Source: Bacteroidota bacterium (lineage in GTDB: Bacteria; Bacteroidota; Bacteroidia; JAHEXY01). From it: DNA of 64,000 bases. Below the pieces are notes generated by a model that saw nothing but the letters and a program-made list of their open reading frames with translations, had not been told where the DNA came from and did not search any database. How positions within the stretch are numbered: position 1 is the stretch's first letter; the number at the start of each line of letters is the position of its first letter. Where the stretch lies: assembly GCA_023251875.1 (NCBI GenBank), contig JAHEXY010000005.1, positions 1 through 64,000 on the forward strand, in the 5' to 3' direction. This document shows, in pieces, positions 31,650-62,471 of the stretch. Both the position numbers and the translations under genes were made by a program.

Positions 31650-32279
31650 TTATTTAATAGATCGTTTTTTTATTTCATCTCTAAGATTTGAAGCACGTTC
31701 ATAAGCTTCTTGATCTATTGCTTCATTTAGTAATTGATGAAGCTCTTGTAAATTAAAATGCGAAAATTCTCCCGCAGTACCTTCTTCCTTTTCAACTTTT
31801 ACTTTTTTTGATTTGTCAGTTTTCTCTACTTTTTCAGCTCCAATTTTTTCTTCCATTTCCTCCTCTTCAATAGTAATTCCTGCAGAAGAAAGAATCGTAT
31901 CATAGGTGTAAATATTGCAATTAAACCTTACTGCAAGAGCAATAGCATCAGATGTTCGAGCATCAATATCAACTTCTTTATCATTATTATGACAAATTAT
32001 TTTTGCAAAAAATATGCCTTCAACCAATTTATAAATAACAACCTCTTTAACTTGTATGCCAAATGAAGTAGCAAAACTTTTAAAAAGATCATGTGTAAGC
32101 GGACGTTGTGGTGTCATTTTTTCGAGCTCAATGGCTATTGCCTGAGCTTCAAAACCGCCAATTATTATGGGCAAACGTCTTTTACCTTTTTCTTCACCTA
32201 ATACTAATGCATAGGCTCCTGATTGCGTTTGGCTGTATGATAAACCTATTACTTCTAATCTTACTTTTTTAAGAGACAT
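31650..32279 (-). CDS. Bifunctional nuclease (DUF151) with C-terminal UVR motif
   Basis: This 209-residue protein starts with the BFN/DUF151 domain (VIGLSYSQTQSGAYALVLGEEKGKRRLPIIIGGFEAQAIAIELE, then EVDIDARTSDAIALAVRF). A charged linker with repeated KEE/VEK follows, then a UVR-type helical hairpin (LHQLLNEAIDQEAYERASNLRDEIKKR), which in UvrB and UvrC mediates protein contacts. In Bacteroidota this pairing is common; DNase and RNase activity has been shown for relatives. It lies 39 bases after etfA in the same direction. Confidence 0.88.
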   Translation of the reverse strand: MSLKKVRLEVIGLSYSQTQSGAYALVLGEEKGKRRLPIIIGGFEAQAIAIELEKMTPQRPLTHDLFKSFATSFGIQVKEVVIYKLVEGIFFAKIICHNNDKEVDIDARTSDAIALAVRFNCNIYTYDTILSSAGITIEEEEMEEKIGAEKVEKTDKSKKVKVEKEEGTAGEFSHFNLQELHQLLNEAIDQEAYERASNLRDEIKKRSIK

Positions 32280-32318
32280 TTTGAGCCCTCCAAATAGTTT
32301 TATTTTTTGTGTAATATA

Positions 32319-33296
32319 CTAATTTAATGAAGATTTATATTCTTTAAATGCCTCAATTAATTTTGGAACTATTTCAAATGCATCTCCTACTATTCCATAA
32401 TCGGCAGCTTTAAAAAAGGGAGCTTCCGGATCGTTATTTATTGCTACCATTACTTTTGATGAGTTAACACCAGCTAAATGCTGTATAGCCCCAGAAATAC
32501 CAATAGCAATATATAAATTGGGAGCAATTGCAATCCCTGTTTGGCCTACGTGTTCATGATGAGGTCTCCATCCCATATCAGCAACTGGTTTTGAACAAGC
32601 CGTTCCTGCACTCAGTATTTTTGCTAAATCTTCAACCATTCCCCAATTTTCCGGACCTTTTAATCCACGTCCACCTGAAATAACTACTTCTGCTTCCGTA
32701 ATAGAAATAGCACCACCCGCTTTTTTAAATTCTTTATGTTGAGAAACAAAATCTGCATCATTAAAGCTTGGAGTAAAATTTTCTATTGTTGCACTCGCAT
32801 TGGCTTCTACCAAATGAAAAGAGTTTGGGGCTAATGCCAATATCTTAACAGCAGTAGTTAATTCAACATTTGAAAAAGCTTTTCCTGAAAATATTTTTCT
32901 TCTTACCACAAACGGACTTACCGATGAAGGCAATGCAATAGCATCAGTAACCAATCCTGCTTGTAATTTCATAGCCACTCTTGGTGAAAGAGATTTTCCT
33001 GCAAAAGTATTAGAAAGAATAATTAATTGCGATCCTTCTTTTTTTGCTGCTTCAGCAATAACAGATGCATATACTTGGACATTAAAGTTATTCAATTTAT
33101 CATGTTGTGCATGGAGTACTTTTGTAGCTCCGTATTTTCCTAAACTCTGTAAGGTTTCATTTGAAACATTACCAATAGAAAGAGCAGTTGTACTTGTGCC
33201 CATTTGCTTTGCTATTTCATTTGCATAAGAAACAGCTTCATATGTTGATTTTTTAAAATTCCCGCCCCAGTTTTCTGATACTACTAGTATTGCCAT
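32319..33296 (-). CDS. etfA: Electron transfer flavoprotein, alpha subunit
   Basis: The 325-residue alpha subunit carries the FAD-binding C-terminal domain. Its signature GRGLKGPENWGMVEDLAKILSAGTACSKPVADMGWRPHHEHVGQTG near 209-255 and GISGAIQHLAGV near 268-279 match EtfA. EtfAB passes electrons from acyl-CoA dehydrogenases to the quinone pool. It lies downstream of etfB, with a four-helix-bundle gene and repeat block between them. Confidence 0.95.
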   Translation of the reverse strand: MAILVVSENWGGNFKKSTYEAVSYANEIAKQMGTSTTALSIGNVSNETLQSLGKYGATKVLHAQHDKLNNFNVQVYASVIAEAAKKEGSQLIILSNTFAGKSLSPRVAMKLQAGLVTDAIALPSSVSPFVVRRKIFSGKAFSNVELTTAVKILALAPNSFHLVEANASATIENFTPSFNDADFVSQHKEFKKAGGAISITEAEVVISGGRGLKGPENWGMVEDLAKILSAGTACSKPVADMGWRPHHEHVGQTGIAIAPNLYIAIGISGAIQHLAGVNSSKVMVAINNDPEAPFFKAADYGIVGDAFEIVPKLIEAFKEYKSSLN

Positions 33297-33300
33297 ATTA

Positions 33301-33414
33301 TTATTTTATTAGTTATTAGTTACTCGTTATTAGTTATTAGTTATTAGTTATTAGTTATTAGTTATTAGTTGTTAGTTGTTAGTTACTCGTTATTAGTTAT
33401 TAGTTTTTACTTTT
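33301..33414. repeat. Tandem TTATTAG-type repeat block
   Basis: This 114-bp stretch is a run of 7-base GTTATTA units with a few GTTACTC and GTTGTTA variants. An inverted, shorter set (ACTAATAACGAACAACTAATAAC-like) lies at 33794-33827 on the other side of the four-helix-bundle gene. The two blocks bracket that gene, as if they were the ends of an insertion. Confidence 0.8.
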
Positions 33415-33788
33415 TCCATATTAATTAAATCCTGATAATAACGTATAAATCCATTTAAGAGTTTTTTACAATCTTCTATTTTTATCAAAAAATCATTTAA
33501 ACAATTTTCAGTAATAAAGTCTAAATCGTGCGAAAGATACAACTGAGTTTCTAATTCATATAAAGATCCTCTTGAAATATGAAAAAAATGAATTGATTCT
33601 TTTGGATATTGTCTGCCACAACCTTCTGCTATATTTGAGGGAATAGAAATGGCTGATCTCCTAATTTGAGAAACTAGTCCGTATAATTCTTCTTTCGGAA
33701 AATTTTTAGTTGCTATATAAACCATTTTAGTTAGCTCCCTTGATTTAAGCCACACATCTAAATCAGTATATTGCTTATAATTTGCCAT
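33393..33788 (-). CDS. Four-helix-bundle protein of the S23/TIGR02436 group
   Basis: This 131-residue protein matches the 23S rRNA intervening-sequence-type four-helix-bundle family: YKQYTDLDVWLKSRELTKMVY, then FPKEELYGLVSQIRRSAISIPSNIAEGCGR, then HFFHISRGSLYELETQLYLS. The family is also related to the Avd accessory protein of diversity-generating retroelements. It sits between etfB and etfA, which are normally adjacent, flanked by inverted TTATTAG repeats, so it looks inserted. The C-terminal codons lie inside the repeat block. Confidence 0.88.
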   Translation of the reverse strand: MANYKQYTDLDVWLKSRELTKMVYIATKNFPKEELYGLVSQIRRSAISIPSNIAEGCGRQYPKESIHFFHISRGSLYELETQLYLSHDLDFITENCLNDFLIKIEDCKKLLNGFIRYYQDLINMEKVKTNN

Positions 33789-33793
33789 GTATT

Positions 33794-33827
33794 TCCTAGA
33801 AACTAATAACGAACAACTAATAACTAA
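33794..33827. repeat. Right-hand inverted TTATTAG-type repeat
   Basis: ACTAATAAC and ACAACTAATAACT units run in the opposite sense to the block at 33301-33414, bracketing the four-helix-bundle gene. Confidence 0.7.
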
Positions 33828-34567
33828 ATAACTTTTGCTTCTTTATGAAGAAGATTTACCAATTCCTTAACATCGTCTTTAGAAACCATTTTGCATCCTG
33901 CTTTAGCAGGTGGCAATTCAAATCCTTTGTATAATTCATGATGTGCAGATGCACTGGGTTGTACTACCTGTAAAGGTTTTGTACGTGCCGACATAATACC
34001 ACGCATATTAGGAATACGAAGATCTTTTTCTTCAACCAATCCTTTTTGACCTCCTACTACCACAGGTAATTTAGAAGTTTGTACTTCTTTACCACCGTCT
34101 ACTAAACACTCAACAGTTACAGAAGTTGCTTGCAATTCCATTCCTACACATGGGGTATAAGAAGGAACACTAAGCAATTCCCCTAACATTCCCGCAACCA
34201 TACCTCCATTGTAATCGATTGATTCTTTTCCGGCAAAAATGATATCGTAATTGTTTTGTTTTGCAATTGCAGCAATTTCAGTAGCCACAAAAAATGCATC
34301 TGTTGGTTGTGCATTTATTCTTATTGCATCATCAGCTCCAATAGCCAATGCTTTACGAATAACAGGCTCTGTATCTGCTAAACCAACATTAATAACGGTA
34401 ATGGTAGCAGCTCCAGCTTCTTTTATGTGAAGGGCTTTTGTTAAACCAAATTCATCATTCGGATTAATGATAAACTGAATTCCATCGGCATTAAATGTTG
34501 AACTATCTTTAAAACTAATTTTTGATGTTGTGTCGGGCACACTGCTAATGCATACAAGTATCTTCAT
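33824..34567 (-). CDS. etfB: Electron transfer flavoprotein, beta subunit
   Basis: This 247-residue beta subunit has the EtfB segments IINPNDEFGLTKALHIKEAG near 35-54, GADDAIRINAQPTDAFFVATEIAAIAKQ, FAGKESIDYNGGMVAGMLGELL and LPVVVGGQKGLVEEKDLRIPNMRGIM. It forms the EtfAB dimer with the product of 32319-33296 and binds AMP. It is the first gene of that split operon. An IS1380 remnant lies upstream. Confidence 0.95.
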   Translation of the reverse strand: MKILVCISSVPDTTSKISFKDSSTFNADGIQFIINPNDEFGLTKALHIKEAGAATITVINVGLADTEPVIRKALAIGADDAIRINAQPTDAFFVATEIAAIAKQNNYDIIFAGKESIDYNGGMVAGMLGELLSVPSYTPCVGMELQATSVTVECLVDGGKEVQTSKLPVVVGGQKGLVEEKDLRIPNMRGIMSARTKPLQVVQPSASAHHELYKGFELPPAKAGCKMVSKDDVKELVNLLHKEAKVI

Positions 34568-34654
34568 GGTGATTTTTATTATTAGTGGGCAAATTTAATT
34601 AAAAGCATGTAAACACCAAAGTAATAATAAAGGTTTGAAGTATTCTTGAATTAT

Positions 34655-34720
34655 ATCCCCAAAAGTCGCAAACAAAAATAAAAAAGTTCCCCAAGCCTAA
34701 TAAAATAAAGTTTTGGGGAT
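34655..34720. repeat. Inverted repeat at the edge of the IS1380-like remnant
   Basis: ATCCCCAAAA at 34655-34664 is exactly complementary to TTTTGGGGAT at 34711-34720. It lies just ahead of the transposase fragment and may be part of an IS end or an outward terminator. Confidence 0.55.
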
Positions 34721-35150
34721 TTCTTTTTTTGGACCCCCAAAGGTGAATATAGTAGTCGCAAAACCAAACTATATGGATAAAGTTACACAAAGCGACAAAA
34801 ATACCACACCTTATGGAGGATTAAATTTCATTTATGAAGCTGTAAGTTGCGCAGGGCTTGATAAATTTCTTGATGCGCAAATTGGCTGTAGAAGTCTAAT
34901 AGCAAAATATTCCTATTCAGATGTTGTATTGTCATTGTTGGGCAATAGCTTGGTACAAGGTAGTTTCATTTCAGATTTACAAACATTAGAAAGATGCTTT
35001 GATAATTTAAATAAGCACGAAGTAAATTTCCCAATTTTAGAGCTGATGCGGCTTCTTACCAATAAAAGGAATTTATTTTGTGAAGATTGGAAATTATATA
35101 GAGAAAGTTATTGTTCAACACTAGAATCATCAATAGTTTTAACATCTTGA
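34713..35150 (+). pseudogene. IS1380-family transposase, N-terminal fragment
   Basis: About 145 codons remain of a protein normally about 430 long. Residues from about 20 on match the start of IS1380 transposases (YGGLNFIYEAVSCAGLDKFLD, then IAKYSYSDVVLSLLGNSLVQG, then ISDLQTLERCFD). The best start is the ATG at 34773 (MDKVTQSDKN); the preceding codons overlap the inverted repeat. The catalytic DDE part is gone and the frame ends in unrelated sequence, so the element is dead. Confidence 0.8.
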
Positions 35151-35566
35151 AGGTGTAATTTTTTTCCTTAAAAATTTTCATCTCTAAAAATTGGCCAAAT
35201 ACTTTTTTCAAAAAAATTTATTTTTTCAACAGAAATATTTGATTTTTGTTTATTTCTAGGTTTAGAGCTTGACTCAGGTTTAATAGCTTTAGACTTGGTT
35301 GGTTTAGTTGGTTTCATAATAGAATTTAACGATATATTTTTTCACGTCTACATTTTTATTGTTGCTAATAGCAAATAGATTCCACTACAAAACTATCTTG
35401 TTCCTGCATCTAGGACAAACTCAATTTTAGCAATAAAAGCAATGAAAAAATTAATGAGAAGGAGGCGGTTTAATGTAAATGCAAGAAAATCAATTAAAAA
35501 CAAATAACAGTGAAGAATTTATTCGGAGAAACTAAATTGGCATATTTGTTTTTAGAAGCAAAAAAT
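35151..35566. other. AT-rich stretch between IS1380 remnant and sufT
   Basis: Apart from the 49-residue open frame at 35168-35317, this 416-bp stretch shows no gene, RNA or strong palindrome. It is probably degraded element sequence. Confidence 0.5.
35168..35317 (-). CDS. Small basic ORF, 49 residues, function unknown
   Basis: ATG at 35315-35317 opens 49 codons ending at 35168. The peptide begins KPTKPTKSK and ends IWPIFRDENF, with a lysine/serine-rich front half. No family is recognised and the nearest genes are the dead IS1380 fragment and sufT. Codon use resembles the region. It may be a real small protein or a leftover of the degraded element. Confidence 0.3.
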   Translation of the reverse strand: MKPTKPTKSKAIKPESSSKPRNKQKSNISVEKINFFEKSIWPIFRDENF

Positions 35567-60812: not shown

Positions 60813-62471
60813 ATGAAAAAAATCCTCAAACCTAAACTACTCTTTGCATTTATAATATGCATGGTAGTTTATTTGGGTAGTTATGCACAAACATGCAGTG
60901 CTAGCTACACACTAATCAAAGACACTTCTAATTATTGTGTCAAATTTAAAAGTACAAGTATTGCAACTTCAAATGCCACTTATACATGGTCATTTGGAGA
61001 CGGCACTTACTCTTCAAAGAAAAACCCCAATCATTGTTTTTCATCGGGTACAACAACTACTGTTTGTTTAACAATTGTTGATTCATTTATGGGTTGTTCA
61101 TCCACTTATTGTGATTCTATTGTATTTGGGTATTCCAATAATAGTTTAGACTCTAATAATAATTGGGTAGATACTACCTATACAAGTTTAGATTCCAATT
61201 ATTACAATTGGGATTCAACCTATACAAGTTTAGATTCTACCAACTATAACTTAGACTCTAACAATACAAATTTAGATTCAACTATAAATTCAGGATGCCA
61301 AGCCGCATTTAGTTACGATGATTCGTGCTATTTTCATTTTTACAGTAATAGTTTAGGCGTAAGTAGTCAAACATTATATGTATGGAATTTTGGCGATGGG
61401 GGATCTTCTTTTGATCAAAATCCAACTCATTCTTATGCAATCAATGGTTCTTACACAGTATGCTTATCAATATTAGATTCTGTTAGTTTATGCGCAAGCA
61501 CAGCTTGTGACAGTGTAGTTGTTACTTGTGCCGGACTTGATACTGTATTTAATTTATCCGGTTATGTAATGACCGACTCAACAGGCTTAGATACTAATTC
61601 AGCTGATTTTGCTAAAGTTTATTTAATAAAATACAATGCTGTCAAAAAATCATTAAAAGCTGTTGCAAAAATTGATGCTGACTACGGAGGTCATTATAAA
61701 TTTTCAAATATTCCGGCAGGTGATTATTTAGTAAAAGGATGGTTGAAAAAAGGATCATACTATTACAAATATTTCATGCCAACTTATTTAGGAGATCAAT
61801 TATACTGGAGTAAAGCAACTACTGTAAATTTATCAGCTGATTCATATGGAAATGACATTCATTTAATTATTGGCAAAAATCCTGGAGGGCCTGGTTTTGT
61901 TGGCGGTAAAGTAAGTAAAGGTGCCAATAAAACGGAATCTGATGATATCTCCATTGAAGATGTTGCCATACTTGTTTTAGATATCAATAACAATCCTGTT
62001 ATGGCCGATGTTACAGATGATCAAGGGCTGTTTTCTTTAGATGGTTTAGCTTATGGAACATATCAAATTTATACTGAAGTAGAAGGAAGATTAACTACTC
62101 CAATAATTGTAACACTTGATCAAAACAATGCTTCTGTTGCAGATATTGATATTGTAATCAATAGTGGTGATGTGGTAGCAAGTATAGCAGCACTAGAGTT
62201 AACCGATGAAGTATCAACTGTTGGTGAAATTTATCCTAATCCAACAAGCTCCAATGCACAAATTGATATTGCATTAAAAGACAATACTGTTATAGATGTA
62301 ATCATTTGTGATGCATTGGGAAAAATAGTATCGTCACAAAAAAGTGAATTACAAAGTGGCAGTCAAAAATTAATTTTAAATACGGCAAGCTTGAAAAAGG
62401 GAATCTATACCCTTCAAGTAAGAAGTAATGAAACAGCAATTACTCATAAACAATTGGTGGTATTAAAATAA
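60813..62471 (+). CDS. PKD-domain T9SS type A secreted protein with low-complexity DS-rich linker
   Basis: This 552-residue protein has a signal peptide (ending SYAQ), two PKD domains (WSFGDGTYSSKKNPNHCF near 65-85, WNFGDGGSSFDQNPTHSY near 192-210), separated by a repetitive segment of NYNLDSNNTNLDST-like units. A carboxypeptidase-regulatory-like domain follows (AKIDADYGGHYKFSNIPAGDYLVKGW, then DDQGLFSLDGLAYGTYQIY), and a type A sorting domain ends it (GEIYPNPTSSNAQIDI, GIYTLQVRS). It has no enzyme motif and is likely a surface or matrix protein. Confidence 0.75.
   Translation: MKKILKPKLLFAFIICMVVYLGSYAQTCSASYTLIKDTSNYCVKFKSTSIATSNATYTWSFGDGTYSSKKNPNHCFSSGTTTTVCLTIVDSFMGCSSTYCDSIVFGYSNNSLDSNNNWVDTTYTSLDSNYYNWDSTYTSLDSTNYNLDSNNTNLDSTINSGCQAAFSYDDSCYFHFYSNSLGVSSQTLYVWNFGDGGSSFDQNPTHSYAINGSYTVCLSILDSVSLCASTACDSVVVTCAGLDTVFNLSGYVMTDSTGLDTNSADFAKVYLIKYNAVKKSLKAVAKIDADYGGHYKFSNIPAGDYLVKGWLKKGSYYYKYFMPTYLGDQLYWSKATTVNLSADSYGNDIHLIIGKNPGGPGFVGGKVSKGANKTESDDISIEDVAILVLDINNNPVMADVTDDQGLFSLDGLAYGTYQIYTEVEGRLTTPIIVTLDQNNASVADIDIVINSGDVVASIAALELTDEVSTVGEIYPNPTSSNAQIDIALKDNTVIDVIICDALGKIVSSQKSELQSGSQKLILNTASLKKGIYTLQVRSNETAITHKQLVVLK
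61144..61284 (+). repeat. Low-complexity DNA repeat encoding LDS-rich linker
   Basis: Several near-identical units of TTTAGATTC/TAATAT type (about 15-21 bases each) encode repeated S/T-L-D-S-N motifs. Unit number could vary between strains. Confidence 0.6.

Follow-up and report, generated by a model that had tools for sequence, protein, structure and literature searches.

A candidate mobile S23 element with inverted heptamer arrays at the etfB–etfA junction of a Bacteroidota genome

Intervening sequences, heptamer repeats and the etfB–etfA locus

Intervening sequences (IVS) that carry one ORF of the PF05635 family are found in the 23S rRNA of Coxiella, Leptospira and Brucella (PMC4990558). 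The Coxiella IVS is 428 nt long, with 28-bp terminal inverted repeats and an S23p ORF; tandem GACAGAT heptamers, whose number varies between strains, lie upstream of the ORF, and the IVS is cut from pre-23S rRNA by RNase III (PMC4990558). A mobile origin of the IVS is listed by the authors of that study as an unproven hypothesis, and the S23 protein of Xanthomonas is cited there as a toroidal homopentamer (PMC4990558). TAACTGA heptamers have been reported from intergenic regions of Bacteroidetes and cyanobacteria without an element, and a role in translational regulation was proposed for arrays that precede start codons (MacGregor 2015, PMC4679880).

The window is the whole stretch of DNA that was analysed, 64,000 nt of contig JAHEXY010000005.1 from a Bacteroidota bacterium. 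On the minus strand it displays the order etfB, a 131-aa PF05635 gene, etfA, at a site outside of 23S rRNA (Table 1). The first-pass annotation had placed an S23/Avd-like gene between etfB and etfA, flanked by a 114-bp tandem repeat and an inverted short copy, and both descriptions were borne out. The translated sequence matches the PF05635 (E=9.5e-39) and TIGR02436 ('four helix bundle protein', E=4.9e-37) profiles, and the neighbouring genes have ETF domains. TRF gives the array a period of 7, a match of 88% and the consensus TTATTAG, and lag-7 autocorrelation puts it at 33306-33419, i.e., 114 bp. The final codons of the PF05635 gene fall within this array, and the first unit of the short arm is the etfB stop codon (TAG). 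The inverted flanks are not a chance occurrence, since their inverted-repeat score has a z of 11.5 against dinucleotide shuffles and a search of the genome with a 25-mer from the array gives 126 near matches, versus 0 with a backwards control.

Table 1. Coordinates of the features between and around etfB and etfA in the window
Feature	Position	Strand	Basis and remarks
Whole inserted unit, arm-gene-arm	33297..33827	-	etfA start to etfB stop; not present between etfB and etfA of 29 relatives; closing stem joins both ends in the predicted fold
Long arm, TTATTAG tandem array, 14.9 copies	33306..33409	+	TRF; on the downstream side of the gene, abuts the etfA start region
Short arm, inverted array, 4-5 heptamers	33796..33827	-	32 nt from the etfB stop codon on; complementarity to the long arm 88%
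Four-helix-bundle gene, PF05635 23S_rRNA_IVP / TIGR02436, 131 aa	33393..33788	-	profile matches; AF2 model
etfB, host gene upstream of the insert	33824..34567	-	PF01012
etfA, host gene downstream of the insert	32319..33296	-	PF01012 and PF00766

The AF2 model of the protein has four helices (pLDDT 95.5) and in structure comparison resembles the S23 proteins 2gsc and 2rld, and also Avd (4dwl). With the DGR protein Avd (4dwl, 8ub7) it shares the fold and presumably the same pentamer. However, sequence identity is about 10%, bAvd/DGR-Avd profiles match only weakly, and the window unit has neither a template/variable repeat nor a reverse transcriptase. Profile and structure searches found no transposase or nuclease gene within the unit, the four-helix-bundle protein being its sole product, and no HUH Y1 transposase between its inverted repeats. 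Rfam gave no significant match within window positions 32000-35500. Two further features of the window are a short orphan ORF beside etfB (34713-35150), transposase-start-like by impression, without a Pfam match and probably an IS remnant, and a 21-bp tandem repeat in 6 copies at 61168-61290.

The unit is similar to several described systems. Terminal inverted repeats are shared with insertion sequences and DNA transposons, but the S23 element encodes no transposase. REP/RAYT (TnpA-REP) systems and REPINs likewise have a single gene between inverted extragenic repeats that are also dispersed as gene-less hairpins. However, their repeats are 20-40 bp palindromes with a GTAG tag, whereas those of the S23 element are 7-bp tandem arrays and an HUH/Y1 transposase is lacking. 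The TAACTGA repeats (PMC4679880) and the cyanobacterial STRR heptamers are also 7-bp tandem intergenic arrays beside start codons, of related sequence, but the descriptions are of direct repeats that lack an inverted partner, and connect them neither with an element nor with S23/four-helix-bundle genes.

The closest likeness is to the 23S rRNA IVS: one PF05635 ORF in sense orientation within a transcribed unit, a terminal inverted-repeat stem around it and tandem heptamers beside it. The 428 nt of the Coxiella IVS compare with 428 bp for a plasmid insert described below. The host differs, however, being helix 45 of 23S rRNA there and a protein-gene operon junction here. In addition, heptamers here make up both arms, the arrays are element-specific, and empty/filled pairs and solo copies are documented. 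From these sequence comparisons the window insert is probably a mobile IVS/S23 element, of a branch of IVS elements that occupies protein-gene junctions, and intergenic S23 elements seem to be the same thing as the rRNA-gene intervening sequences. The open-access full-text literature (subscription papers were not covered) has no paper that connects inverted heptamer arrays with PF05635 genes at sites other than rRNA. In view of this and of the likeness to the Coxiella IVS, these are regarded as IVS elements at protein-gene junctions, with evidence of mobility. Heptamers and terminal inverted repeats were already displayed by the Coxiella IVS.

Inverted arrays and operon junctions across the PF05635 family

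The genome of the window has five PF05635 genes, all with inverted flanking arrays. The repeats of the other four are AATTGAA, AATTGAC, AATTTGA and AATTAGC, one each, and at least two of these genes are also at operon junctions, scoA–scoB and hmgA–hppD. To extend the comparison, an inverted-repeat score between 220-bp flanks was computed for 67 PF05635 genes, i.e., 60 loci from 60 genomes and those of the window genome. The median score is 33, with 66% at 28 or above, versus a median of 19 and 4.5% for 714 control genes; the threshold of 28 was set by eye, genes were taken from a simple ORF finder, and related genomes in the sample are not independent. About one third of the PF05635 genes are without a strong score. 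Scores of at least 28 are also found in 22 of 31 PF05635 loci from further named Bacteroidota and in 35 of 46 from other phyla, including the candidate phyla radiation, Atribacterota, Omnitrophota, Fibrobacterota and cyanobacteria. A PF05635 gene is present in 119 of 148 members of the class, with a maximum of 23 copies. No rRNA match was detected in the 12 loci from other phyla that were checked, and no match to the element was found among 50,697 phage records. In one contig (L223:1040-4849) three PF05635 elements each follow one of consecutive ABC-permease-like genes.

The same gene does recur elsewhere with flanks of the same kind, a check that the first-pass annotation had named: inverted period-7 arrays are general, although each element has a heptamer sequence of its own. 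Simple-sequence slippage beside an unrelated gene might be proposed for an AT-rich genome that has about 10 period-7 arrays per 400 kb. The family-wide statistics relative to control genes refute this reading, and its probability is negligible.

The elements are co-directional with both neighbours in 60 of 66 cases, versus 223 of 339 control genes. From the preceding stop codon to the upstream arm the median distance is 2 nt, and from the end of the other arm to the next start it is 8 nt. Recurrent junctions, with gene names read from the neighbour sequences and not from annotation, are fadJ–fadI, fadI–acyl-CoA dehydrogenase, sufB–sufC, sufS–sufE, groES–groEL and mraY–murD. Antisense copies are present in cyanobacteria. 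Most of the IVP proteins from fad and suf operons group in clades that extend over adjacent junctions. Such clades at single operons indicate that many copies are long resident; thus long residence and short hops both occur. In a plasmid of Picosynechococcus PCC 7003 (L450), an S23 element separates cmr2 from cmr3 of a type III-B CRISPR operon, and none is found in PCC 7002 (L456).

Empty sites, filled sites and gene-less copies

Empty etfBA sites had been proposed as a check on mobility, and such sites were found. In 29 of 29 relatives tested, none of them close to the window genome, etfB and etfA are adjacent without a PF05635 gene (gap 1-123 bp), and several of these relatives have array hairpins instead of the gene. 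The gene without repeats at a syntenic etf locus was not encountered; a single further locus with the order etfB–gene–etfA was seen (L309), and inverted arrays are present there, of a sequence other than that of the window.

Other junctions show a similar alternation. Within one genus, sufB–sufC is occupied by the element, is empty (23 bp), or contains a DUF4062 gene, two unrelated hairpins, or a GIY-YIG gene in an inverted hairpin. Across 33 Chryseobacterium records, the occupant of groES–groEL is one of three IVP types or one of two solo hairpin kinds, and it switches 17 times along the groEL tree. The base-level structure of an insertion is seen in conjugative plasmids of Nostocales, whose flanks have an identity of 96-99%. 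At the empty junction the sequence is AAAAAGTAATTAACAAATAAATATG; the filled one, in a comparison at 98% flank identity, has a precise gain of 428 bp with GTAAT on both sides. In a second filled plasmid one array is shorter by exactly 14 bp, i.e., two heptamers. Related plasmids at the AAAAAGTAATTAACAAATAAATATG-type junction have a truncated remnant or a gene-less hairpin with the same heptamers. A second plasmid pair, with 92% flank identity, shows a clean 417-bp insertion without clear duplication. It should be noted that a clean 5-bp target-site duplication is found in one empty/filled pair only, the others having none or small replacements. The same plasmid element is also present at two further plasmid loci, which makes three unrelated loci in all, with DNA 78-82% identical. 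Thus the unit recurs as a whole, and appears and disappears at fixed junctions among close species and plasmids. Together with the family-wide flanks, the empty sites support the mobile repeat-gene-repeat unit suggested by the first-pass annotation, as far as sequence comparison can.

Genes of other kinds were seen in comparable positions. The GIY-YIG nuclease gene (L237, G058 sufB–sufC) lies within an inverted TGTCATTCTGAGCGAAGCGAAGAATCT hairpin, where a sister species has an S23 element, and possibly represents a parallel family of nuclease-carrying junction elements. The DUF4062 gene (395 aa) is, in one species of that genus (L234), the sole insert at sufB–sufC. PDDEXK_3 (GxxExxY) and DUF559 genes are likewise found within inverted repeats of other kinds (L200:6654-7073, L223:6126-6518 and L223:7342-7671).

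An exchange of junction alleles between species should also be considered, whereby homologous recombination acts via the conserved flanking genes and the element itself hardly transposes. The switching at Chryseobacterium junctions could be of this type: near-identical GTAC solo hairpins are present at groES–groEL of species distant on the tree, and the divergence of IVP type A tracks that of groEL (r 0.66). However, unrelated loci whose flanks differ carry the same element, IVPs that are related and share an array occupy different junctions, and the plasmid insert carries a 5-bp direct repeat. As an account of the elements in general, allele exchange is therefore unlikely. Still less likely is an ordinary operon gene that serves the host, with arrays that tune translation of the neighbour as proposed for the TAACTGA repeats. 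Some junctions are indeed occupied in many families, and the proposal for arrays before start codons (PMC4679880) would fit. But the gene is missing from the same junction in close relatives and is scattered across unrelated operons, and the array sequence is not conserved.

Array sequences are also found without the gene. Genomic matches to the window 25-mer that were inspected are mostly intergenic, and several are inverted pairs; this survey covered 864 kb of genome stretches, 464 kb of which were partly chosen around known arrays. TAACTAA/TAACTGA heptamers also occur in the window genome. One Chryseobacterium genome has a GTAC-type solo hairpin at groES–groEL and an IVP gene with a GTACATT arm at fadJ–fadI. 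In another (L426-L430), the tRNA-Ile and tRNA-Ala genes flank a type-A heptamer hairpin in each of five near-identical copies, apparently in rRNA operon spacers. The gene-less copies, the family-wide occurrence and the match to the Coxiella 23S rRNA IVS go beyond the first-pass annotation. In another contig (L167:8094-9386), heptamer-like arrays of several motifs occur within 1.3 kb, partly inside reading frames.

Maintenance of the arms, possible mechanism and meaning

The heptamer sequence varies among elements, and a period of 7 is shared by the arrays. The arms have a lag-7 match of 0.56-0.60, with 0.56-0.58 at lag 14 and 0.49-0.51 at lag 21, whereas shuffled sequences give 0.32. Of 42 loci, 31 have their best lag at 7 and 9 at 8. 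With 8% C on the sense strand, the upstream arm is poor in this base. Within a copy, the two arms have an identity of 0.87 in register and of 0.56-0.59 when shifted by one unit. Since the units match in order, the possibility that the arms merely share a binding motif was rejected. Arm complementarity is 40 within one locus, versus 18.5 between homologous copies.

Among proteins 60-70% identical, array similarity is 0.42 at different junctions and 0.45 at the same junction, relative to a baseline of 0.12-0.13. The TTATTAG array of the window, for example, matches those of Pontibacter mraY–murD elements, whose proteins are 61-62% identical to it. Thus the arrays travel with the gene to new sites, and seeding of arrays by the host stop codon is unsupported. 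A deep co-evolution of protein clade and heptamer is also unsupported below about 50% identity, arrays being common to close relatives only.

A functional role of the arms at the RNA level was considered. A transcript stem would keep the arms complementary, RNase III would excise the insert from operon mRNA as with the IVS, and any movement would be by reverse transcription. A 27-bp stem is predicted to close around the window gene (z -2.0), the RNase III-excised Coxiella IVS has the same anatomy, and 60 of 66 elements are in sense orientation. However, G.U-compatible changes are not in excess among arm mismatches (94 versus 109; fraction 0.46, CI 0.39-0.53), so the G.U bias that would mark RNA selection was not found; the wobble test, which had no positive control, thus weighs against the sense transcript being selected to form an RNA stem. 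Antisense copies also exist, and in many genomes rich in IVP genes, among them G058 (23 copies) and G024 (11), no reverse transcriptase was detected. An RNA-level element is therefore rather improbable. The absence of PF00078 from IVP-rich genomes indicates that a reverse transcriptase is not needed for mobility, and RT-driven movement was rejected as a requirement. That the arms are unit-by-unit copies without a G.U bias suggests maintenance at the DNA level.

For the mobile S23 element, the following scheme may be considered. The outer ends are the inverted arrays of an element-specific heptamer, with one PF05635 four-helix-bundle gene inside. An Avd-like pentameric protein may bind the heptamers, probably as single-stranded DNA or as a hairpin, and so mark the ends, while an enzyme of the host, or one acting in trans, would cut and join. 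The arms would be kept alike, and altered in length, by slippage during replication and by template switching from one to the other. Stop-to-start placement would persist because the neighbours stay intact, the gene rides on operon transcription and stop codons adjoin the upstream gene. Solo hairpins would be non-autonomous derivatives.

A broader proposal can be offered tentatively, as a possibility that is somewhat less than even. PF05635 proteins may act as the mobility factor in a transposable-element class of their own, in which a pentamer recognises element-specific inverted heptamer arrays and mobilises gene-less hairpins as well as itself into stop-to-start gaps across many bacterial phyla, a class that would be ancestral to the 23S rRNA IVS. 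If this is true, PF05635 elements would be a transposition system without a known transposase fold.

PF05635, 'S23' or 'four helix bundle' genes rank among the commonest small unexplained genes of Bacteroidota. The origin and mobility of IVS have been debated since 1990 (PMC4990558), and the present work unites IVS and junction elements in what is probably one mobile family with recognisable ends. With filled and empty sites at base resolution, the movement of the elements, the recognition of their ends and the role of the protein become directly testable. A possible origin is also offered for the scattered intergenic heptamer arrays that were reported without explanation in cyanobacteria and Bacteroidetes.
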